From Rhodopirellula bahusiensis (GTDB taxonomy: Bacteria; Planctomycetota; Planctomycetia; Pirellulales; Pirellulaceae), in the NCBI RefSeq assembly GCF_002727185.1, contig NZ_NIZW01000002.1, positions 620,001 to 684,000 of the forward strand: a DNA stretch of 64,000 nt, read 5' to 3'. The notes below the pieces were generated by a model that had not been told where the DNA came from, made no database searches, and saw only the letters and a list, made by a program, of their open reading frames with translations. The position numbers and the translations under genes are program-made. Shown here one piece after another: positions 11,861 to 60,268 of the stretch. The first letter of the stretch is position 1, and the number at the start of each line of letters is the position of its first letter.

Positions 11861-12070
11861 GTCCGGTTCCCACCGGACGTCCGCCGCGATTGAGTTCGCG
11901 TTCGGTGGTTGCGAACCGTGAGCTAACGCTCGGCGGCTGATTTGTTCGGGCGGTGCGGAGCGATCCTTGCTCACGCTACGGGTTGGATTTGACGCGGGCA
12001 TCCGAATTCTGGCGAATCCGGCTACGGCGGTGTCTGTGGCCCTGTGATCCTGATCTACTTTCCCACTCCC
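11861..12070. repeat. Composite intergenic repeat cluster (modules D, A, C)
   Basis: Between convergent genes lie three modules seen again at 30-32 kb. Module D (GGTCCGGTTCCCACCGGAC) is at about 11862-11880. Module A on the minus strand (CCTTGCTCACGCTACGGGTT) is at about 11964-11983. Module C on the minus strand (GAATTCTGGCGAATCCGG) is at 12004-12021. Their order is inverted relative to the 30 kb copies, so the cluster can sit in either orientation. Confidence 0.75.
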
Positions 12071-17906: not shown

Positions 17907-18949
17907 TGAATCTGGAATCGTGCGAGGACGGGATTGTGGTCACTGATGTCACGCTGGTCATCAGGGATGTCCCAGTAGCTGTTCCAGTGTTCGTCTTGGG
18001 TGTCTTGTTTGCCGCCGAAGTTCAAATCGTTTCGAACCGTGACATCGCGAAGCGATAGGTCGGCGACGCCAGGTGTGTCGATGACCAAGTCGCGCGAAAC
18101 GAGAATGCGGTCGAATTGCCGACCGGGCAGCAAATGTGTCGTTCGGTCTGCGGCGGGAATTTGATCGTGTAAGTCAACCAAATCGTCGGAGGGATCGTCA
18201 GTGCCTCGCGAAATCAAAACGGCGAGGTCCGAGTCCGGGGAGATCTGACCGGCCAACTCTTCCGTGTTGAAGTCTCCGGTGACAATGACGTGAACCGGTT
18301 GATCCGGGTTCGGTTGCGATGCCTTGACCCCGGCGACCAGTCTTTCGAGCCATAGGCTGAGCGTGCGTGCTTGCCGGGCTCGCAGTTCGCCTTTTTCGGC
18401 CATCGCGCGAAGGTGACAATTCGCGATCACCAGCAATTCGACGTTGCCGTTGACTGGTATTTCGACGACGGCGAACAGATGTTTGGACACTGACGCGTAC
18501 CCACGTGACTTCATCGATGGCGTGACGATTCCACGAGAGATCGATTGCACGCCGGTTGTCGTGGTCGCCAAGAACGCGACGTCTTGCTCGGTGTAAAAGT
18601 CTTCGCCTTTGATCACGTAGTCGTCGTACTTCAGGCCGTGATTGCGATCGATCGCTCGAGTCAGAAAATACATGACGTTCTGACTCTCGATTTCCTGCAA
18701 TGCCACCACCGTTGGCTGCACGTTCGCGATCGCCGCGGCAACTCGGTCGCGTCGCCAATCCCATTGTTCGCGGCTGGGAGCAGTCTTTTCACGCCCGAGT
18801 TCACTCGGGTTGTCCGCCGGTTGATCGTCGAAGAACCATTCCAAGTTCCAAGTCATCACGCTGAACTCGGTTGGCTCCTGTGCGTCGGCGTGAGATCCCG
18901 TGGCACCAACAATCAGCCCGGCCGTGGCGAGCAAGTGGATCAATCGCAT
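17903..18949 (-). CDS. Secreted endonuclease/exonuclease/phosphatase-family protein
   Basis: ATG 18949 is preferred to the upstream ATG 19009 because it opens a signal peptide (MRLIHLLATAGLIVGATGSHADAQ has basic, hydrophobic and AxA-like parts), giving 348 residues. The DNase I/APE1-like fold is marked by TWNLEWFF (early Asn), VVALQEIES (metal-binding Glu), VTGDFNTE (Asp-x-Asn) and the terminal SDHNPVLARF (Asp-His pair). These residues make up the usual Mg-dependent phosphodiesterase site. The enzyme should act in the periplasm or outside, on nucleic acids, phospholipids or phosphorylated sugars; sequence alone does not say which. Confidence 0.85.
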   Translation of the reverse strand: MRLIHLLATAGLIVGATGSHADAQEPTEFSVMTWNLEWFFDDQPADNPSELGREKTAPSREQWDWRRDRVAAAIANVQPTVVALQEIESQNVMYFLTRAIDRNHGLKYDDYVIKGEDFYTEQDVAFLATTTTGVQSISRGIVTPSMKSRGYASVSKHLFAVVEIPVNGNVELLVIANCHLRAMAEKGELRARQARTLSLWLERLVAGVKASQPNPDQPVHVIVTGDFNTEELAGQISPDSDLAVLISRGTDDPSDDLVDLHDQIPAADRTTHLLPGRQFDRILVSRDLVIDTPGVADLSLRDVTVRNDLNFGGKQDTQDEHWNSYWDIPDDQRDISDHNPVLARFQIQ

Positions 18950-28587: not shown

Positions 28588-30333
28588 ATGTTGACGATGC
28601 CCGCTGATCTGTCGCTGCGTTCTTCTGCCAAATCTGCCGGATTGGCGATCTGTTTGACGACGCTTTTCACGGCGTTGTCCGCAATCGCGTTCCCATCTTT
28701 CGCGAATGCCCAAGGGCAACAGGCGGCGATGGCGGCTGCTGAGCGAGCTGCCATGGAAGCTCAGGCAGGCGGCCCCGGCGGACCGCCGACCTATGGAGAA
28801 ATGGAAAATGGCTACGACGAGATGGAGATGTACGATTCCCAGATGGAAGACCAAGGAATGGGCGATCCGTACGGCGAATCGGGGTACGGTTCTGGCTACG
28901 GCGGTCAATCAAACTCCGGCGGAGGCAACCTGGCTCCGTCGCCAATGGTGATGCTACAAGTGTTCCGGCTCGATTGGTCACCGCTCACTGAACGGGTCCA
29001 GCAAGTTTTTACGAACGCAACCGCTTCGCAACAGCCCGTGGCGTTGGGGCCGGTTCTTCGCAACGAAGCCCACGTCGCTTATCGGTACGGAAATCTGCCG
29101 TTGGCCCTGCAGCTTTTCCATGGCTTCATCGCACGTGGAAGCGACGCGGCGGAGCAGCAGATGGATCAGATCAAATTCAGCAAGCATTTTCGAAAGCCTC
29201 TTTGGCACCTTCGGATTGGTACCAGCCTGGGTGTGCATGGCGATTCGTCGACGGCTGACCCATCACCCATCACCAGCTCCGGATCATCCAATGGTATGGG
29301 ACGAGGCGATATGGGAATGGATGCCGGGATGATGGAAATGGACATGGCGATGGGCAACCCAGGTCCGGGCATGGAAGGTGCGATGCGTGACGACATGGGC
29401 ATGGACGACATGAGCATGGGTGAAATGGACATGTACGCGGAAGACATGGGCATGGGTGGACCTGGCATGGGCATGGGCATGGGCGGGCCCGGAATGGGTG
29501 GACCAGGCATGGGAATGCCCGGTCGAGGCGGACGAAACCGCAACGCAGCGGCGATGGCTCCGAAGGCCGAGATGACCGACTCGGAAGTGAACTCTCGCAT
29601 GGAGAAGTTCCTGGGCTTGGTCGCTGAAACGATCAAAACCGGATTGTCGAAACGAATCTCCGACGGCAAATTCGGACATGCTTTGACGGACGTCGAACGT
29701 GAATCGACGACGCAGGGGCACACCGTCAACGGTGACTCAGTCGACGACGCAGCTCAATCGATGTGGATCCCCAGCGTCTTGTTCGTCGGCGAAGGAAATT
29801 CTCGCGACACGATCAAGACCGCTCACAATTTGGAACTGGATTTGTTGTTCCATTTTGACGTTGGTCTGAAAGAAAACCGAGTCGGCGCGGTCAGCAACAT
29901 CAGCCGGGTGAAAGTTTTGGACGCTCGCACCGGAAAGACATTGGTTAGCTCGGGGCCAATGGAAAACACCGAAGTCGAACGAATGAACCGCGTCGGTCGA
30001 GGCTCAGCTTCATCCTACGTCGACGAGCAACTGAAGTCGCTTTGGGCGGTCGTTGATGAGCGACTGACGTTGTCTGACCTGCCAACGCTGAGCCCCGAAG
30101 TGGCTCGCAAACGCGTGGCCCAGGTCCTGGGTGACAGTTCAATGACTCCGCTGCGAAAGCTGGCCGAAATTCGCTACTACGGTTACCGCGGTTGGTTGAC
30201 CGAAGAAGAAGTGGAACAAGCCTTCGAGATCACAGGCGGCCCCGACGCCATGAAAGTCCTCCACGGCAGCGACACCCAAGCGATCGAGGCCATCCACGAA
30301 CTGGTTGTCGAAGCTGCGGCCAGTGATTCCTGA
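28588..30333 (+). CDS. Exported Met/Gly-rich protein of unknown function
   Basis: The 581-residue protein has a signal peptide (about 1-42, ending FPSFANAQG). A Gly/Tyr/Met/Glu-rich segment at about 50-115 precedes a globular helical part (about 118-215). Next comes a striking low-complexity block at about 230-315 with dozens of Met and Gly in MGMxxPGMG repeats, then a second globular domain (about 325-500) and a helical end. Met-rich blocks can bind copper, but here they may simply be a flexible spacer. No family was recognised. Its gene diverges from the dockerin protein. The 3' side is followed at once by composite repeats. Confidence 0.7.
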   Translation: MLTMPADLSLRSSAKSAGLAICLTTLFTALSAIAFPSFANAQGQQAAMAAAERAAMEAQAGGPGGPPTYGEMENGYDEMEMYDSQMEDQGMGDPYGESGYGSGYGGQSNSGGGNLAPSPMVMLQVFRLDWSPLTERVQQVFTNATASQQPVALGPVLRNEAHVAYRYGNLPLALQLFHGFIARGSDAAEQQMDQIKFSKHFRKPLWHLRIGTSLGVHGDSSTADPSPITSSGSSNGMGRGDMGMDAGMMEMDMAMGNPGPGMEGAMRDDMGMDDMSMGEMDMYAEDMGMGGPGMGMGMGGPGMGGPGMGMPGRGGRNRNAAAMAPKAEMTDSEVNSRMEKFLGLVAETIKTGLSKRISDGKFGHALTDVERESTTQGHTVNGDSVDDAAQSMWIPSVLFVGEGNSRDTIKTAHNLELDLLFHFDVGLKENRVGAVSNISRVKVLDARTGKTLVSSGPMENTEVERMNRVGRGSASSYVDEQLKSLWAVVDERLTLSDLPTLSPEVARKRVAQVLGDSSMTPLRKLAEIRYYGYRGWLTEEEVEQAFEITGGPDAMKVLHGSDTQAIEAIHELVVEAAASDS

Positions 30334-30790
30334 CCCGAACGACGCTCGTAGGTTCGGTTCCCACCGGACATCTTCCCAGCTCCAAGTCCCAACCCGCAGC
30401 GTCAGCAAGGCCATCCCCGTAGCCGGATTCACCAGAATTCGGACGGAAAGTCACGCGGTTCAGGCTATTCCTGGTCATAACCCGCAGCGTCAGCAAGGCT
30501 CCTGGTGATGTGACCAACCGACTCAAAGCCTGAGTCGGCAACGTGTGCATTGAACCGCAGCTTCGTACAGCCATCCCCGTAGCCGGATTCGCCAGAATTC
30601 GGATCTCAACCCGCCGCGTCAGCAAGGTCTTCCGTGTTGAGGATCCGCCGACTCAGAGCCTGAGTCGACTACACGTACATGGTGTGCAGGCTGGCAAAGC
30701 GTCCGGTTGGCCCGCGTAGCCGACTCAGGCCCTGAGTCGGCCCAGGTGAACGGCATCCGAATTCTGGTAACCCTAACGCTTGCCGCGACT
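30334..30790. repeat. Composite intergenic repeat cluster (D-A-C-A-B-C-A-B-B)
   Basis: Four short modules recur. Module D (GGTTCGGTTCCCACCGGAC) is at about 30350-30368. Module A (AACCCGCAGCGTCAGCAAGG) occurs at about 30391, 30480 and 30608. Module B, a near-perfect palindrome (GACTCAGAGCCTGAGTC), occurs at about 30519, 30651 and 30723. Module C (CCGGATTCACCAGAATTC, or GCC in place of ACC) occurs at about 30423 and 30583, with a partial inverted copy near 30754. The order C-A-B repeats. The cluster fills nearly all the DNA between two plus-strand genes. Confidence 0.85.
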
Positions 30791-30956
30791 TTATCGATCA
30801 CGCAAACCAGGGCCCCTCTGGTCCAGCGATTGAACGTCGAGGGTACAAGATGACGAATGAGAGAATGCATCAAGGCTCCCGTCACGCAAATCGCGTTGGG
30901 GATCCACCGCATCGCGATTCAAACTCATTCGGCCCTGCAAAAGGACTTGCCCGACC

Positions 30957-31541
30957 ATGGCGACCACGTTCCCAACACAACGCACGTTGCTCTTCGCCGC
31001 AATCCTCGCAGCGACAGCATTCGGTGGCATTCGCACCCAAACAGCATCCGCGGACTGGGGTTCGTTGGTTCACCAAATGCACGTCGGATACCACCGCAAC
31101 GTCGCTTGGCCGGACCCGTTCAACGAGGTGGACGCGTTGCAAGTCGTGATGCCATTTGAAGCGATGAAACGCAACGGATGGCGTATGCACAACACCATCG
31201 GACACGAACTGTTCCGCGGCGGCGACGGAGCCCTCTTGGCCGCCGGCCAAAATCGCGTCCGTTGGATCGCGACCCAGGCACCCGAAAACCGCCGAGAGAT
31301 CTACGTGCTTCGTGGTGCAACCCAGTCCGAGACGCAGTCACGGATCAAATCCGTGCGGGATGCAGTCGACAACTATGTGTTGGATGGACAACCGCAGCCA
31401 CAAGTCCTCGTGACCACCATCGAGCCCGCGACATCGCCGGGTGTCATGGCCACCAAGATCAACCGAGAGCGCCTCGAGCAAATGGCCGCACCAAAGTTGC
31501 CAACCACCAGCGCCGCCGGAACCGCTGGCATCACTCAGTAG
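30957..31541 (+). CDS. Small exported protein of unknown function
   Basis: This 194-residue protein has a signal peptide (TLLFAAILAATAFGGIRTQTASA). After it comes a short region with W, H and Y residues (DWGSLVHQMHVGYHRNVAWPDPF) and a mixed globular part. An apparent beta-hairpin (REIYVLRGATQSETQSRIKSV) precedes a Pro/Thr-rich tail. No domain was recognised. The gene lies alone between two repeat clusters and is followed by the best intrinsic terminator in the window. Confidence 0.72.
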   Translation: MATTFPTQRTLLFAAILAATAFGGIRTQTASADWGSLVHQMHVGYHRNVAWPDPFNEVDALQVVMPFEAMKRNGWRMHNTIGHELFRGGDGALLAAGQNRVRWIATQAPENRREIYVLRGATQSETQSRIKSVRDAVDNYVLDGQPQPQVLVTTIEPATSPGVMATKINRERLEQMAAPKLPTTSAAGTAGITQ

Positions 31542-31592
31542 AGCTGTCTGAGCCGAGGAGTCCGCAAGACGACGGACGGTTCCAATAACAAC

Positions 31593-31633
31593 AAAAAAGG
31601 CGACTGCGAGCCAAGCTCACAGTCGCCTTTTTT
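31593..31633 (+). terminator. Strong intrinsic terminator
   Basis: A hairpin with arms AAAAAAGGCGACTG and CAGTCGCCTTTTTT has a further GAG/CTC pairing and ends in a run of T. It lies about 50 bases after the stop of the small exported protein gene. The symmetric A and T runs mean it can also work on the minus strand, against readthrough from the polysaccharide locus. Confidence 0.88.
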
Positions 31634-31659
31634 CAATGTCGTATTAAAGTTGCCTGTCG

Positions 31660-32330
31660 CTCAGCCGCCTAACAGAATCAACCTCGTAGCCGGATTCGCC
31701 AGAATTCGGACCACAAATCATGCCGTCCAAGCTACTCCAAGTCACAACCCGCCGCGTAAGCAAGGCTCTTAGTGATGTGGACAACCGACTCAGAGCCTGA
31801 GTCGGCGACACGTTTGCTGAACCGCAGCGTCGTACGGTCGTCTTCCGCAGCCGGCTCGCCAGAATTCGGACTCACCACTGCCCGTCACCTATCCCAACCC
31901 GCAGCGTGAGCAAGGCTCTTCTTGATATTGCGAACCGACTGAGAGCCTGAGTTGGCAACACGCATGCTGAACCGCAGTGTCGTACGGCCGTCTTCCGCAG
32001 CCGGATTCGTGAGAGATCGAACTCTTCACATCTGTAGCCGATTCAGGCCCTGAATCGGCCTTCTGCGCATTCAAACGCAATCTCGCCGGGGCCGTCCATC
32101 CCGCAGCCGGATTCGCCAGAATTCGGACCACAAATCATGCCGTCCGAGCAGCTCCAAGTCACAACCCGCAGCGTAAGCAATGCTCTTGGCGATGTGGACA
32201 ACCGACTCAGAGCCTGAGTCGGCAACGGAGTCATCCCGCAATGGAAGCAATGCCGAGCCCTGAAGGTGGCGACCAGCACCGCGTCCTTGCTAACGCGGCG
32301 GGTTATGAAAAGCAAATGCCACAGGCTGCC
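31660..32330. repeat. Composite intergenic repeat cluster, C-A-B units in tandem
   Basis: Units in the order C-A-B are strung together: C at about 31689, A at 31745, B at 31785; C at about 31848 (variant CCGGCTCGCC), A at 31893, B at 31938; a truncated C near 32000; a B variant with GATTCAGGCCCTGAATC at about 32040; C at 32107, A at 32164, B at 32202. An inverted A copy (CCTTGCTAACGCGGCGGGTT) ends the cluster near 32285. Spacers between B and C also match (GAACCGCAGCGTCGTACGG). Unit length is about 160 bases. No gene is supported here. Confidence 0.87.
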
Positions 32331-32383: not shown

Positions 32384-33877
32384 TCAATCGGACGTCTCAG
32401 CTTCTTCCGTCATCGCCGCTCGGTGTTCTTCCGCCAATTCTTCTTGCCCCAAAGCCTCAAAGCAAACCGCAAGCGACTCGTGAGCCGCATTGGCGAGCGA
32501 CTCTTCCGCCAAAGCCCGTTCGAGGTCAGGGATGGCTTCCAGGTGTTTACCGAGCTTCGTCAGGATCTGCCCGCGGGTTTCAAAGAAGTAAGCATTCGGT
32601 GTCGAGACACTTTCGATCGCTTGCTCGCTGATCTGAAGGGCTTGCTCCAAATCGCCATCTTCCTTCTCCGCTATCGCGACTGCCAAGTTATTCAGGATGG
32701 CCGGGCTATGCGGCAAATGTTCCACCGCGAGCTTCAGGTGGAGCGTTGCTTTTTCAGCATCGCCTTTCAACAGGGCCGCCGTCCCGCGGATGAAATTCGC
32801 GATTCCCGGCGAAGACCCTTTGACCAGTGCCGCTCGAATCTTGCCCAGTTCTTTATCGTCTGATTCCAACGTTTTGAGCACCTGATCCGCAACCAGGCTC
32901 AGCACGCGCGGATTGTTGGGGGCGTACTGCAACGCAACTTGCAGCATCTTCAGCACCCGCAAACGTTCTTCCACGGTCTCGTTGGGTTCCGATTCAATCT
33001 TGTTGATCCAGACGACGATGGTGTCGCCCATCGCCTGTTGCAACCCAGCCTGATGCTCCTTGGTTTTCATTCGGCCAATCGATTCGCTCAACAGCCGAAC
33101 CGCGTCCGCGTGCTTCTCAAGAAAAATCAACGCCTGAACGTTCGCCATTGCCAACTGCGGGCTAGCCGGCTCTTCCTCAAACAGCTGCTGAATCTTTTCG
33201 AGCGTTGTTTCTGCGTAGCGAGTTGCAGCGTCATCCTCGCCAGCCTGGCGGGAAATCATCGCCGCCTGCAAACCAAACATCGGCTGAACGGACGCGAGTT
33301 GAACCAGGTACGGAACCGCCTGATTCTGGCGGTTGGTGCGAATGAGATAGTCCGCATAAGCCTTCTTGATGCCCAAGTCATCAGGAACTTCTTCGCTCAA
33401 TAGACGAAGCAACTGTCCGAACTCTCGCTGCTCATCATTCTCCAGGTCCGCCCACTTCTTTTGTTCATAGAGCTCCTGCAACAACCACCGAGCCGCACGG
33501 GCGTCACGCTGCTGCGCCACCAACCCACGCATCAGCGACCGAGCCTCCTCCGTCTCATCCTGCTGATTCCGAGCCACCGCCAACCGGTACAGCGTCTCAG
33601 TTGACTCGTCACCTTCTTCAATCTGCCGCCGAATCAGCAGATCCGCTGTCTTGTAGTCATCACGTTCAAAAGCGGACGCCAACTGTTCGCGGATCAACTG
33701 ATTCCGCCAAGAAACGTTCTCACCCGTCGAAACAAACAGCAAAATCGCCAAAGCGATCGTTAATGCCAGCGCAGGGATCGCAGTTGATGCTCGCTTCCAC
33801 GGAATCGTCCGAAACCAAGCAATGAACCACTGTCCAAACCACTTGAACCACTGCAACGGGTTGAGGTACCGAATCAT
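32384..33877 (-). CDS. Membrane-anchored TPR-repeat protein of the exosortase locus
   Basis: The 497-residue protein has an N-terminal amphipathic stretch and one transmembrane helix (AIPALALTIALAILLFVS, about 32-50), then about nine TPR-like helix pairs to the end. Recognisable TPR signatures include YRLAVARNQQDETEEARSLM, NNLAVAIAEKEDGDLEQALQ and PDLERALAEESLANAAHESL. The TPR part should lie outside the cytoplasm. Its ATG overlaps the exosortase stop by 4 bases (33874-33877), so the two are made together. Large TPR proteins often accompany exosortase or polysaccharide-export genes, where they organise assembly complexes. Here that role is inferred from context. Confidence 0.82.
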   Translation of the reverse strand: MIRYLNPLQWFKWFGQWFIAWFRTIPWKRASTAIPALALTIALAILLFVSTGENVSWRNQLIREQLASAFERDDYKTADLLIRRQIEEGDESTETLYRLAVARNQQDETEEARSLMRGLVAQQRDARAARWLLQELYEQKKWADLENDEQREFGQLLRLLSEEVPDDLGIKKAYADYLIRTNRQNQAVPYLVQLASVQPMFGLQAAMISRQAGEDDAATRYAETTLEKIQQLFEEEPASPQLAMANVQALIFLEKHADAVRLLSESIGRMKTKEHQAGLQQAMGDTIVVWINKIESEPNETVEERLRVLKMLQVALQYAPNNPRVLSLVADQVLKTLESDDKELGKIRAALVKGSSPGIANFIRGTAALLKGDAEKATLHLKLAVEHLPHSPAILNNLAVAIAEKEDGDLEQALQISEQAIESVSTPNAYFFETRGQILTKLGKHLEAIPDLERALAEESLANAAHESLAVCFEALGQEELAEEHRAAMTEEAETSD

Positions 33878-35742
33878 GATGACGCCTCCAAGTCAGCTTC
33901 AGTCTGATCGGCAGTTCCGACCGCCGAGCCACCACTGGCCGCCTTCACCGCGGTCGCGATCTTCTGCCGCAGTCCGTCGAACATCTCATCAACCCGATCA
34001 ATCGTCGACGCATCAAGCTTTTGAGGGGCAACCACCCAAAGCTGCAGCATCATCATTGGTTCGATTGCTTCATCCAATCCTTCCGCGGCATCGGCGATGC
34101 GGCGTCCGATTTGTCCGGGCCTTTCGGGTGGGTAAACAAAATTTCCTGATGGAGTGATTGCGGAATACCAAAGATGACCGCGTGCGTCGGTGTCGCCACC
34201 AAACAGAGCATAAGCGAAAGGTTGGAATCCAGAATCGGCCACTTCTGACTCGGTAGCATCCGTTGACTCCAAAATTCGATTGAGCAGTCTCCAATCTTGG
34301 TTTTCATAGCAAAGACAAAGCTCATGCCACTCCGCATAGGTTTGGCTTAAAACAAACTGCCCGCGAACTGGAAGGCCGTTGACCATCGATTCGAATGTCC
34401 AAACATCCGCATTTTGACCGAGAATGGGATTGTCACCATCACGCGACTGTTGATGTTCATTCAGTTGAAAGCCGCTGTTGCCTGAAGAGATGAACTTGAC
34501 GGGCGGCTCAAAAACAATCCCATCAACGAACATGCCCTGTGCACCTTCCTCTACGCCGACAGCACTGACCTTCATGGCTGACGACGAACTCACCGAAATC
34601 AAGACAACTCCCAGAACCGCCATTGCTGCTGCGATTGGCTTGGCTTGCAAACGGCCCAATAGACGAGCTAGCTGAAGTTGGAATCCAAGCTCCTTCCGAT
34701 CGGAAGCGGACTGATTGCTCCGGTAGTATTCGCCCACGGCGTCAACGTTTTGGCCGTCGTCAACGAACCAATTCCAAAGATGCAAGACTGGATTGTCCGG
34801 ATGTTCGTCCGACGTCGTTCCAGTCACGTGCATCAGCGTCATGATCATTCCATCGAATGACCATAGGAAGAATGCCGAAATCGCCAAAGTGGTGTATCCC
34901 AAAATGTCGTGAGCCCACCCCGATGCAAGGTCAAGCGACATCCATTGATCAGCGACAGCGACCATGGTCACTCGCAAGACATTTCCGCCGGCGGCGAGAA
35001 TGAGAGCGATGATCAAATAGAATGGAGCCAGCCACAGTTTCCGACGATTGATCGCGACGATCAACGTGCTGAGAAAAGCCATGGTGAAGACAGACTGGAT
35101 TCCACTGCACGCCTCAGCCACAAATAATTCTCGGCTTGGCAGTTCAATCACATTGCGTGTCACCGCGTGCGGAATCGAGAGAACATCGAGGAGCAAGCTC
35201 GACATCATTGTGGTCAAATGCTGCAGCTGGATCACCAGCAACTGGTCGTAGCCAAGCGGCAAACGAATCAGCAGCAGTAACGGCAGAGCGAGGATCAACA
35301 GGCTCTTGTCGTGCGGGCCGCGCATCACACTCAAACAAGCCGCTGTGTAGCAGACAAAGGCGATGGACATCATCCAAGGTGACCGGAGGCTCCAACTTCC
35401 GATCATGGCGAGCACGCCCACTGAGATCAGCAGCAAGGAACTGATTCGAGACGGAGCGTAGAAATAGCGGTCGCTACGAGACCATGCCAGCCATGCGACC
35501 GCTCCAATCGCAAACGGAAAGTACTGGTAGTGGTCCAGACGCCACATCCGCGAGAAGTAGATGACCAGCATAGGAATGCACGCGGCAAGCAGAGCCACCC
35601 AAAACCACGTCCAAACGGATTGGATGACCGGAGTGCGAATGGGAGCCAGCGGCACCTTCGCCTTCGTCTTCATGGGAGCGATCGCGGGAGAATCTTCAGT
35701 CATACTGCGGTCTGTTGTGCGGGGGGAAAGGTCGATCCCCAT
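33874..35742 (-). CDS. xrtU: Exosortase (planctomycete XrtU type) with EpsI-like extension
   Basis: Starts at 35772, 35742 and 35703 are all possible; 35742 (MGIDLSPR) is used here. Numbering from 35772 (632 residues), eight or more membrane helices span about 50-315. The exosortase triad is present: Cys222 in EACSGIQS, Arg267 in GNVLRVTM and His288 in WAHDILGY. Exosortases cut C-terminal sorting signals such as PEP-CTERM and probably attach proteins to surface polymers. After the membrane part, one more helix (IAAAMAVLGVVLISVSSSSA, about 375) precedes a periplasmic EpsI-like domain to the end. EpsI proteins usually accompany exosortases, here fused in one chain as in planctomycete XrtU. Downstream is the coupled TPR gene. 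Polysaccharide genes upstream fit an EPS-linked exosortase. Confidence 0.88.
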   Translation of the reverse strand: MGIDLSPRTTDRSMTEDSPAIAPMKTKAKVPLAPIRTPVIQSVWTWFWVALLAACIPMLVIYFSRMWRLDHYQYFPFAIGAVAWLAWSRSDRYFYAPSRISSLLLISVGVLAMIGSWSLRSPWMMSIAFVCYTAACLSVMRGPHDKSLLILALPLLLLIRLPLGYDQLLVIQLQHLTTMMSSLLLDVLSIPHAVTRNVIELPSRELFVAEACSGIQSVFTMAFLSTLIVAINRRKLWLAPFYLIIALILAAGGNVLRVTMVAVADQWMSLDLASGWAHDILGYTTLAISAFFLWSFDGMIMTLMHVTGTTSDEHPDNPVLHLWNWFVDDGQNVDAVGEYYRSNQSASDRKELGFQLQLARLLGRLQAKPIAAAMAVLGVVLISVSSSSAMKVSAVGVEEGAQGMFVDGIVFEPPVKFISSGNSGFQLNEHQQSRDGDNPILGQNADVWTFESMVNGLPVRGQFVLSQTYAEWHELCLCYENQDWRLLNRILESTDATESEVADSGFQPFAYALFGGDTDARGHLWYSAITPSGNFVYPPERPGQIGRRIADAAEGLDEAIEPMMMLQLWVVAPQKLDASTIDRVDEMFDGLRQKIATAVKAASGGSAVGTADQTEADLEASS

Positions 35743-35859
35743 GATAAGGCGAGGAGTGTCCGAACGCCACAAATTGCTAGCCGATTGTCACCGCAATCGC
35801 GAAAAGATTTGCAGCCAATCCCGCTCAATCGGACGCTGGAATCGCAGAGATCAGATGTG

Positions 35860-36340
35860 TCCGGCGTTTGAGTCTGCAATCACAACCCGAACGCGTCAGC
35901 GAGGGACCATACGTCGGAATCCTCGGCAAATCTGGCGATGCAGACGAGCATCGCTTGTCGCGTCACAACCCGCCGCGTCAGCAAGGCTTCGACCAACATT
36001 TTTACGAATCGTAGCTGGAATCGCCAGATCTCAGTTTGTTTGCAGGACTGCGAACCGTTGCGTGCGTTCTCACGCAGAGTCCTTGCTAACGCGGCGGGTT
36101 ATGAAGATTGGCAAGATATCCGAATTTGATGCGATTCCTGATCATGTTCGGGAGGCCGATTCAAAGCCTGAATCGGCTACGACGTTTGGTGGCTCGAGCT
36201 TTTGCAGCTTCGGCGATGGAGAGACGCCTCGATAACGCCGAGAATGCACACACGTAGCCGACTTAGGCCTCTAAGTCGATGATCTGGCTACGCAGACGAG
36301 CGTCGTTTGTCGCGTCACAACCCGCCGCGTCAGCAAGGCA
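35860..36340. repeat. Intergenic repeats upstream of the exosortase gene
   Basis: Module A occurs at about 35885 (variant with GAACGCGTCAGCGAGG), 35967 and 36320, with an inverted copy (CCTTGCTAACGCGGCGGGTT) at about 36080. Module B-like palindromes lie at about 36155 (GATTCAAAGCCTGAATC) and 36258 (GACTTAGGCCTCTAAGTC). A diverged C variant (GTAGCTGGAATCGCCAGAT) occurs at about 36012 and 36363. The 870 bases between the autokinase and exosortase genes hold no supported gene. Promoter elements of the exosortase-TPR pair would have to lie among or after these repeats, near 35780-35860. Confidence 0.8.
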
Positions 36341-36455
36341 GCGATCAAAAGTTCTTTACATCGTAGCTGGAATCGCCAGATTTCAGACTGTTCGAATTGG
36401 AATTCTTGGCCCATTTCGTACAGCGAATTCTGCTTGGTTCAATGAGCGTTGGATC

Positions 36456-59404: not shown

Positions 59405-59515
59405 GTTCTTAGCGGAGTGGCGCGAGCCGTCGATTCATCTGGTAGTGGGATTCGCCAGAATTCCTTTTTTATGCTGCTTGAGCAGCAGGAACTCTGGCGA
59501 GTCCCGCTACGAAAG
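59405..59515. repeat. Long hairpin carrying the module C core
   Basis: Arms TAGTGGGATTCGCCAGAATT... (59444-59466) and ...AACTCTGGCGAGTCCCGCTA (59488-59510) pair at about 20 of 23 bases, with a loop that itself folds (GCTGCTTGAGCAGC). The arms contain GATTCGCCAGAATTC, the module C core found at 30-32 kb. The left side (TAGCGGAGTGGCGCGAGCC) resembles an arm of the 14.7 kb element. It lies between the FkbM-type and RfbC-like genes. Confidence 0.75.
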
Positions 59516-59524
59516 CAGATCGTC

Positions 59525-60268
59525 TTAGCTCGGGGTGGCCAGGATGTGGTGGTATTGTCCGTTGTGGTTGGCCATGTCGGACAATTGCCCGATTTCAAAC
59601 CCGTGTTCACGCAAGAATGCGTAAACCGATTCAGTCGACTCACCGAACTGCGGCAGTGCATAGTCGTGGACTTCGATCAACAATTTGGGCCGCACGCGTT
59701 TCAGGAAATCGATGCCACTGCGAAGCACGGACATTTCGGCACCTTCCACATCAATTTTCACGAAGCACTTGCCCGGGTTGGTCAGGTGTGTCGTGATCGA
59801 ATCGAGCGACTGATTTTGAACTTCAATTGTGCCGACCGCATTTTCATTCATCGAAATTGCAGCACTCGGCTCCAGATTGTCTGAGTCAACCTCCATCTGC
59901 AGCGTCGGCTGTTCCAGATCGCTAATGGCACTAGCTGTGATTTGGACACGGTCGTCGAAACGATTCAGTGCGATATTGCGACGCAGCAGCCGCAAGTTTT
60001 CCGGAATCGGTTCCAACGCGATGACGTTCCCGTTGCTGCCAACGCAGTCGGCCATCAACAACGTATGCATGCCAAAGTTGGCACCGATATCGATCGCCGT
60101 TTCACCAGCACCCAGGTTCGATTCGATTCCGTCGCGCACCTCCGCTTCTTGATCGAAATTCCAGCGGCGCAAACTTTCGTCAAAGCGAAAGTCGTGCTTT
60201 CCAATGGATCGTGGAACTCCGCGACCGAGGTGGCGAATCAAGAAATAGCTATCACGTAAGAACTTCAT
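59525..60268 (-). CDS. FkbM-family methyltransferase
   Basis: The 247-residue protein has the FkbM-type SAM site ETAIDIGANFGMHTLLMAD (about 55-73), then VIALEPIPENLRLLRRNIAL and the downstream FVKIDVEGAEMSVLRSGIDF (about 165), which are the family signatures. These enzymes methylate hydroxyl groups of sugars or polyketides. It lies 7 bases after the GT2 gene stop and about 130 bases before the RfbC-like gene, with the long hairpin between. Confidence 0.88.
   Translation of the reverse strand: MKFLRDSYFLIRHLGRGVPRSIGKHDFRFDESLRRWNFDQEAEVRDGIESNLGAGETAIDIGANFGMHTLLMADCVGSNGNVIALEPIPENLRLLRRNIALNRFDDRVQITASAISDLEQPTLQMEVDSDNLEPSAAISMNENAVGTIEVQNQSLDSITTHLTNPGKCFVKIDVEGAEMSVLRSGIDFLKRVRPKLLIEVHDYALPQFGESTESVYAFLREHGFEIGQLSDMANHNGQYHHILATPS

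Follow-up and report, generated by a model that had tools for sequence, protein, structure and literature searches.

Two intergenic clusters of short repeats in the planctomycete Rhodopirellula bahusiensis (genome G000, 7.78 Mb) very probably form a hybrid bacterial interspersed mosaic element (BIME), in which three families of repetitive extragenic palindromic (REP) sequence stand together, have grown by tandem duplication and have partly decayed. The clusters occupy positions 30391-30740 and 31686-32304 of a 64,000-nucleotide stretch of contig C2 (C2:620001-684000, referred to here as the window), on either side of one exported gene, and hold 20 modules of three types (A, B and C) plus three decayed copies of A, as placed from the sequence and by hand. 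The original prediction for this DNA, made from the letters alone, had recognised the three modules and suggested a structured RNA or a protein-bound cruciform. All three modules are present where it placed them; the clusters are very probably of a known kind and not a new RNA or regulatory system.

Cluster 1 (30391-30740) lies between the 3' end of a gene at 28588-30333 and the exported gene at 30957-31541, and reads A, C-A-B, decayed A, C-A-B, B. Cluster 2 (31686-32304) lies between the exported gene and a convergent gene at 32384-33877, and reads C-A-B, decayed A, C-A-B, decayed A, C-B, C-A-B and a closing A in reverse orientation. The order C-A-B, predicted to be fixed, is kept by five of the six C modules, the remaining one lacking an A (C-B). 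The predicted conservation of spacers applies to the distance between the starts of A and B, which is 39-40 bases in all five C-A-B units, but not to that from C to A, which varies from 29 to 60. Likewise, the predicted unit length of about 160 bases agrees with two of the C-to-C spacings (160 and about 160) but not with the others (about 150 and 106). The units are reiterated as in a BIME: 31685-31809 and 32102-32226, two units of cluster 2, are 92.8% alike. The conserved spacer that separates B from the C after it was considered as a fourth module, a reading rejected because this spacer aligns with A (30555-30603 against 30394-30443, 88%). The decayed A copies are found on the plus strand at 30553-30570, within this spacer and recognised by the 88% match, and, from the sequence, at 31820-31837 and 31970-31987.

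Modules B and C have the anatomy of the GTAG superfamily of REPs, a short palindrome preceded by a tag, and fold at -3.9 to -9.4 kcal/mol. C is made up of a GTAG tag (GCAG in some copies), an 8-base stem and a loop GCCA or GCCAA. Its copies in the clusters are all on the plus strand. The copy at 30419-30442, GTAG followed by CCGGATTC-ACCA-GAATTCGG, folds as single-stranded DNA at -5.1 kcal/mol (z -4.6); those at 30579-30602 (pattern search, fold) and 31686-31709 (pattern search) are followed by three placed from the sequence by hand, namely a degenerate copy with a GCAG tag at 31847-31869, one with a decayed right arm at 31997-32020 and a GCAG-tagged one at 32103-32126. B has a 9-base stem and a loop of 3-4 bases. 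GTAG precedes the plus-strand copies at 30716 and 32034 and the minus-strand ones at 30648 and 36156; in the other copies within units, GTTG or GTCG takes its place. On the minus strand are the B copies at 30518-30542 (GTTG; missed by the initial regular expression and added by coordinates), 30648-30672 (GTAG, first stem base changed; sequence, fold), 31785-31809 (GTCG; sequence), 31935-31959 (GTTG, arms mispaired at two places; sequence, pairing count) and 32202-32226 (GTTG; sequence). Two further copies, both GTAG-tagged, lie in the opposite orientation on the plus strand, at 30716-30740 (pattern search, fold) and at 32034-32058, where the arms carry compensated changes, T-A in place of C-G (pattern search, pairing count, fold). 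Judged by its tag, B runs opposite to C and A within the units; inverted A-A and C-C doublets occur elsewhere.

The conserved flank of A, TC(A/C)(C/T)AA, is on its 5' side (70 copies in the own genome), and the strand carrying this end was taken as the strand of A. Pattern search places A on the plus strand at 30391-30410, 30479-30498, 30608-30627 (a poor fold alone), 31746-31765 (also examined by folding), 31896-31915 and 32163-32182 (one additional change), and on the minus strand at 32285-32304, closing cluster 2. A reading of A as GTGG-tagged on the minus strand, with A and C alternating, was rejected once the conserved flank proved to lie on the opposite side. A is REP-like in that it occurs in high copy, forms doublets and flanks a RAYT (REP-associated tyrosine transposase) gene; the inverted doublet beside this gene, on contig C8, folds at -25.1 kcal/mol (z -7.7). 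In relatives the four bases before the core of A are GTAA (L067, L068, L128), GTAG (L072, L075), CTAG, CCAG or CAAG, and vary by RAYT lineage (L072, L075, L077, L080, L084 and others). Possibly, these lineage-varying tags link the GTAG REPs with the atypical structures reported for class 3 TnpA_Y1.

Searches with exact patterns, which carried free positions, found 194 matches to A, 506 to C and 37 to B in 13 genomes of the genus, of which 68, 53 and 13, respectively, are in the own genome; reversed-pattern controls gave 0 for each. Looser searches of the own genome gave 93 matches against 1 in the control for A, 40 against 4 for B and 36 against 0 for C. The repeats are not due to chance. B in the form seen in the window (at most one mismatch) is confined in the own genome to these clusters and C2:656156, 4 kb away. 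A C lies within 80 bases of 26 of the 80 A copies in the fetched regions. At several loci of the own genome and in G120, A and C are close neighbours of like orientation, often 5-24 bases apart. That they form a recurring head-to-tail hetero-pair of repeats from two RAYT lineages, read by two different transposases so that one RAYT could carry the repeats of the other, with B coming third, is a speculative and rather doubtful idea. Close C-C pairs in G120 are mainly doublets with the tags outside (14 of 19). In four places of the own genome (C21:355, C43:206, C51:463 and 867), B-type REPs of CTGAG form stand within 1 kb of a contig start; they may belong to some longer repeat, present in several copies, at which the assembly breaks.

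A Y1_Tnp search of the own genome gave 15 matches, nine above the cut-off, and three of these loci carry repeats of the window types on both sides. RAYT_A on contig C8 (L059/L066) has inverted A doublets on both sides; RAYT_B on C3 (L055/L137) is flanked on both sides by B-type REPs whose arms read CTGAG; and RAYT_C on C7 (L063/L149) is flanked by doublets of GTAGCGGAA(G/C)TCGCCAAGA(C/G)TTTCG, a sister repeat that shares the loop of C. The same repeat thus flanks the cognate RAYT for A and for the CTGAG form of B, and for C there is only the sister repeat and a one-sided case in G120. Pfam Y1_Tnp alone was rejected as a basis for listing RAYTs, being too weak for the C7 protein. All three proteins carry the HUH and tyrosine motifs (NHLH/YVLVAQ, NHVH/YIQNNS and DHAH/YIARNP for A, B and C, respectively), and the best NCBIfam family of each is the REP-associated tyrosine transposase (NF047646). 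A search of solved structures matched the B RAYT to TnpA_REP (4er8, E 0.006); its matches to the A RAYT were all weak and unrelated.

Across the genus, counted in the central part of each fetched locus, repeat type tracks RAYT identity. A-type repeats are present at five of five loci whose RAYT_A relatives are 54-89% identical, and at none of five at 37-47%; B-type repeats are found at three of three loci with RAYT_B at 87-100% and none of nine below 50%; and the sister of C accompanies RAYT_C relatives at 90-100% in three of three loci, more distant relatives mostly carrying other GTAG-tagged repeats (L152-L157, L159, L160). RAYT_A relatives occur in 43 of the 119 genomes of the wider family. 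By eye, 14 of the 20 best such loci are flanked by A-like repeats on either side (L066-L068, L071-L073, L075-L080, L082, L084); the rest comprise one-sided (L074), variant (L085) and other repeat types (L081, L083), and two loci with none (L069, L070). To judge from these comparisons, repeat sequence follows RAYT lineage across this family of Planctomycetes. A stop-carrying RAYT_A relative in G125 stands beside A-type repeats arranged in tandem, many of them with a period of 65 bases (L128:814-2542), and RAYT genes with an internal stop at L153, L156 and L160 each lie within multi-unit repeat arrays.

The contents of the gaps around the exported gene differ among related species. The gene is kept in 11 of the 13 genus genomes. 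The same scan counts 18 modules beside it in the own genome, 15 in G120 and 16 in G121; in G127 and G123 the arrays lack B and combine C with a GCGAGG form of A; and no module was seen in the syntenic gaps of G122 or in the scanned flanks of G124 and G126. With the 900-base flanks of six window sites used as anchors in five relatives, the cluster 1 gap in the relatives measures 212-567 bases, and the cluster 2 gap measures 741-865 in the own genome (depending on the anchor), 773 in G120, 506 in G121, 569 in G122 (without modules), 1588 in G127 and 420 in G123. Such variation in length and content between related genomes is a property of BIMEs. It also bears on the suggestion that the modules are duplex or cruciform sites for host proteins such as gyrase, IHF or polymerase I, kept by the host, the RAYTs having merely introduced the repeats. 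Binding of this kind is reported for the REPs and BIMEs of E. coli (PMC2817692, PMC3686654), and the setting would suit it, cluster 1 following the 3' end of a gene and cluster 2 separating two convergent genes; however, gap content that changes from species to species argues against any fixed site being kept, and we regard this explanation as unlikely, if the least so of the alternatives. The prediction of a protein-bound cruciform survives to the extent that a hairpin-reading protein is the likely agent, but not as a cruciform site tied to the exported gene.

Pairing is kept in both B and C. In the pattern used for B, seven stem pairs were fixed and the remaining two could take any base on either side; all 37 tagged rows, from seven of the 13 genus genomes and with one place counted on both strands as two rows, are Watson-Crick paired at both free pairs, in four combinations. 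In a set of 17 distinct copies (ten from the pattern and seven from the window), 98% of cells pair against 91.1 (sd 1.3) after shuffling, and the covariation score is 0.230 against 0.100, neither value being reached in any of 500 shuffles; pair 11-20, for example, is CG in 8 copies, GC in 6, UA in 2 and other in 1. The claim that the pairing of B is kept and not its letters is upheld by this excess of paired changes, the copy at 31935 being mispaired at two places. The compensated variant on which that claim drew, GATTCAGGCCCTGAATC at 32040, is real, but it belongs to no C-A-B unit; its tag, an intact GTAG, places it on the opposite strand. Of the 53 C copies in the own genome, 52 pair at all three free positions of the pattern if G.T is counted; this count is unbiased, unlike an earlier tally in which C-like copies were kept only if at least 7 of 8 pairs formed. 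The contrast drawn with passive decay holds in part: pairing is kept, but the array is also decaying, with its decayed A copies, GTTG and GTCG tags on B and the broken C at 31997.

Template switching during replication could maintain palindromes without any recogniser, compensated changes then being a by-product of copying. It predicts paired changes in any palindrome, and the changes in B probably reflect few independent events, since copies inherit them. However, if one arm were copied from its partner, imperfect G.T pairs should be erased, yet 45 of the 53 C copies in the own genome hold G.T at stem position 4, which the pattern left free, and we consider template switching improbable. The same G.T, which pairs in RNA, can be set beside the compensated changes in B and the folding of the unit at 31680-31845 (-57 kcal/mol as RNA, z -3.2) in favour of a structured regulatory RNA, with the C-A-B unit as an RNA domain whose hairpins are kept for its function. 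Against this, no Rfam match was found in the window at the gathering score, and the hairpins of the folded unit include B and C, which are present at many other places. The modules are repeats that accompany RAYT genes elsewhere, and, although the exported gene is widely kept in the genus, no module was seen in its gaps in G122 or in the scanned flanks in G124 and G126, and the arrays are different in G127 and G123. We therefore hold an RNA to be very unlikely.

The refutation test attached to the original prediction gives a split result: paired changes in B are in excess, but the C-A-B order is local to this locus and not genome-wide. The A-to-B spacing is 39-41 bases in the copies of the own genome, G120 and G121. 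Seven unit segments picked out by a strict pattern place the last unit at a common position in three species, with a likeness of 0.82-0.85. The unit, as far as these comparisons indicate, arose locally before the species split, with duplication and loss following later; the array in the window is old, its last unit being common by position to three species, and partly decayed. That C-A-B is a single composite mobile element moving whole is the least credible alternative: the constant A-to-B spacing and the order seen in five of six units of the own genome and three of three detected C copies in G121 speak for it, but of three detected C copies in G120 only one has A and then B after it, while two read C-B-A-B, the window form of B is restricted in the own genome to this locus and 4 kb away, and the likeness of the last unit fits local inheritance.

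We favour the hybrid BIME, and envisage its formation as follows. Each of the three families would belong with one lineage of RAYTs, HUH transposases with a single tyrosine that resemble TnpA_REP. By analogy with that protein, the RAYT would read the tag and hairpin of a REP in single-stranded DNA, cut nearby and join the strand elsewhere; the E. coli TnpA_REP carries out cleavage and strand transfer in vitro, for which GTAG is reported to be crucial and a bulge required (PMC8266576). Joining driven by RAYTs would have put repeats of different families into the same intergenic gaps, where they settled side by side and were then multiplied as a tandem unit, the composite unit subsequently expanding and contracting via local duplication and loss. 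We infer that RAYTs moved the copies seen here and that single-stranded DNA is the form read; the array would have no role tied to the exported gene. A role in the host, such as gyrase binding or protection of mRNA, is possible.

Several observations weigh against this reading. In the own genome A is not preceded by GTAG, the four bases before its core being ATAA in 25, ACAA in 21 and CCAA in 16 of 70 copies, and lone A copies fold no better than shuffled sequences on either strand; our confidence is slightly lowered because A lacks GTAG here and folds well only as an inverted doublet. When A is read from its conserved end, C and A mostly share their orientation (22 of 26 near pairs in the own genome and six of seven in G120), unlike the alternating repeats of classical BIMEs. 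The three transposases score 27.4, 66.5 and 39.5 bits with NF047646, all below its cut-off of 80, and the C7 protein has no Pfam match (Y1_Tnp E 0.13). Exact C was not found on both sides of any RAYT; at L158 in G120, a C doublet follows on one side only, some 20 bases beyond a reading frame interrupted by a stop. Nor did a search within about 1.5 kb of 30 B-type loci reveal a RAYT with the CTCAG form of B seen in the window. G120 has 44 copies of A but no close RAYT_A (best 47%), and G121 has nine B-type rows but no RAYT_B above 42%. Of the five anchored relatives, only G122 lacks both clusters, yet it has C copies at a third site of the window. Finally, two measures of covariation in B do not rise above shuffles, namely double-change pairs (reached in 234 of 500) and pair types (452 of 500), because few pairs vary.

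This third site (35884-36386), 4 kb from the clusters, contains the same module types: variants of A, C' with compensated arms, a reversed A, B (36156), a B-like copy (36254), A and C'. It has an A-C' duplication of its own (35930-36040 and 36282-36392, 86%), and a long overlapping open reading frame (ORF) at 35561-36235 is taken to be spurious. Five of the six repeat sites in the window are outside the main ORFs (at least 190 amino acids); the sixth, a C-like match at 18555, was rejected as a REP site, since it is inside an ORF, none of five relatives has the match and four of the five have the same gap length. Among the extragenic sites, an A-C pair at 11965-12025 between convergent ORFs is doubled in G120 and G121, and its counterpart in G127 is a 1333-base gap with none of these repeat types. 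A C-type doublet with tags outside (59442-59510) stands beside a minus-strand ORF at 59525-60268; no match to the flanks of this doublet turned up in the stretches fetched for five relatives. The exported gene is separated from cluster 2 by a terminator-like hairpin (31593-31633), with TTTTTT on the plus strand as read from the sequence, that is conserved in G122 (92% over 31593-31631, L091), which has no repeats there. A terminator scan lists this hairpin on the minus strand only, among three such sites found where 2.3 are expected; a promoter scan of the window found none where 0.4 are expected.

Among the closest described systems are the hybrid BIMEs that Nunvar et al. (2010, PMC2817692) reported from Stenotrophomonas maltophilia, tandem modules with REPs of different RAYTs, in which modified REPs keep their palindromes and the authors infer selection for complementary mutations. 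Mixed tandem modules and kept palindromes are common to both. As described, the S. maltophilia elements combine REPs of two RAYTs, as opposed to three repeat types here, and their inter-REP segments lack mutual homology, whereas spacers here are homologous between units; they also differ in that C and A here mostly share an orientation. Rhodopirellula baltica is reported among the hosts of several GTAG REP families (Di Nocera et al. 2013, PMC3733652), which share with C and B the tag, the 8-9 bp stem, the short loop and tag-outside doublets, together with subfamilies of alternative complementary stem bases, hybrid dimers (about 10% of dimers in that report) and REP-flanked RAYT genes. The likeness is one of anatomy. 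A is set apart from those families by its lack of GTAG, and the arrangement of C and A by being mostly head-tail; head-tail REP dimers are said to be rare. RAYT_A shares with the published description of class 3 TnpA_Y1 (PMC6006769) the HUH motif, a Y----Q motif (YVLVAQ), high-copy flanking structures and a planctomycete host. It agrees with the published motif YV[VI][AENY]EQ only at Y, V and Q, however, and the foot CnGA given there contrasts with the ATAA, ACAA or CCAA that precedes the core of A here and the CTAG, CCAG or CAAG of several relatives. The E. coli BIMEs (y, z1 and z2 REPs with TnpA_REP) are likewise multi-REP mosaics with a GTAG tag and an HUH transposase, but there one RAYT gene is delimited by two REP types, while the types here go with different RAYT lineages (PMC8266576, PMC2817692).

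Hybrid BIMEs as a kind, the compensation within their palindromes and the genus as a host of several REP families have already been published; a description of a three-family C-A-B unit was not found in a literature search covering open-licence papers. The analysis removes a candidate structured RNA, since an element of a known kind explains the clusters. Outside the Proteobacteria, a hybrid BIME of three families is added, and in Rhodopirellula the A-type and B-type repeats are linked to RAYT genes. The paired changes are useful data on what a RAYT reads.

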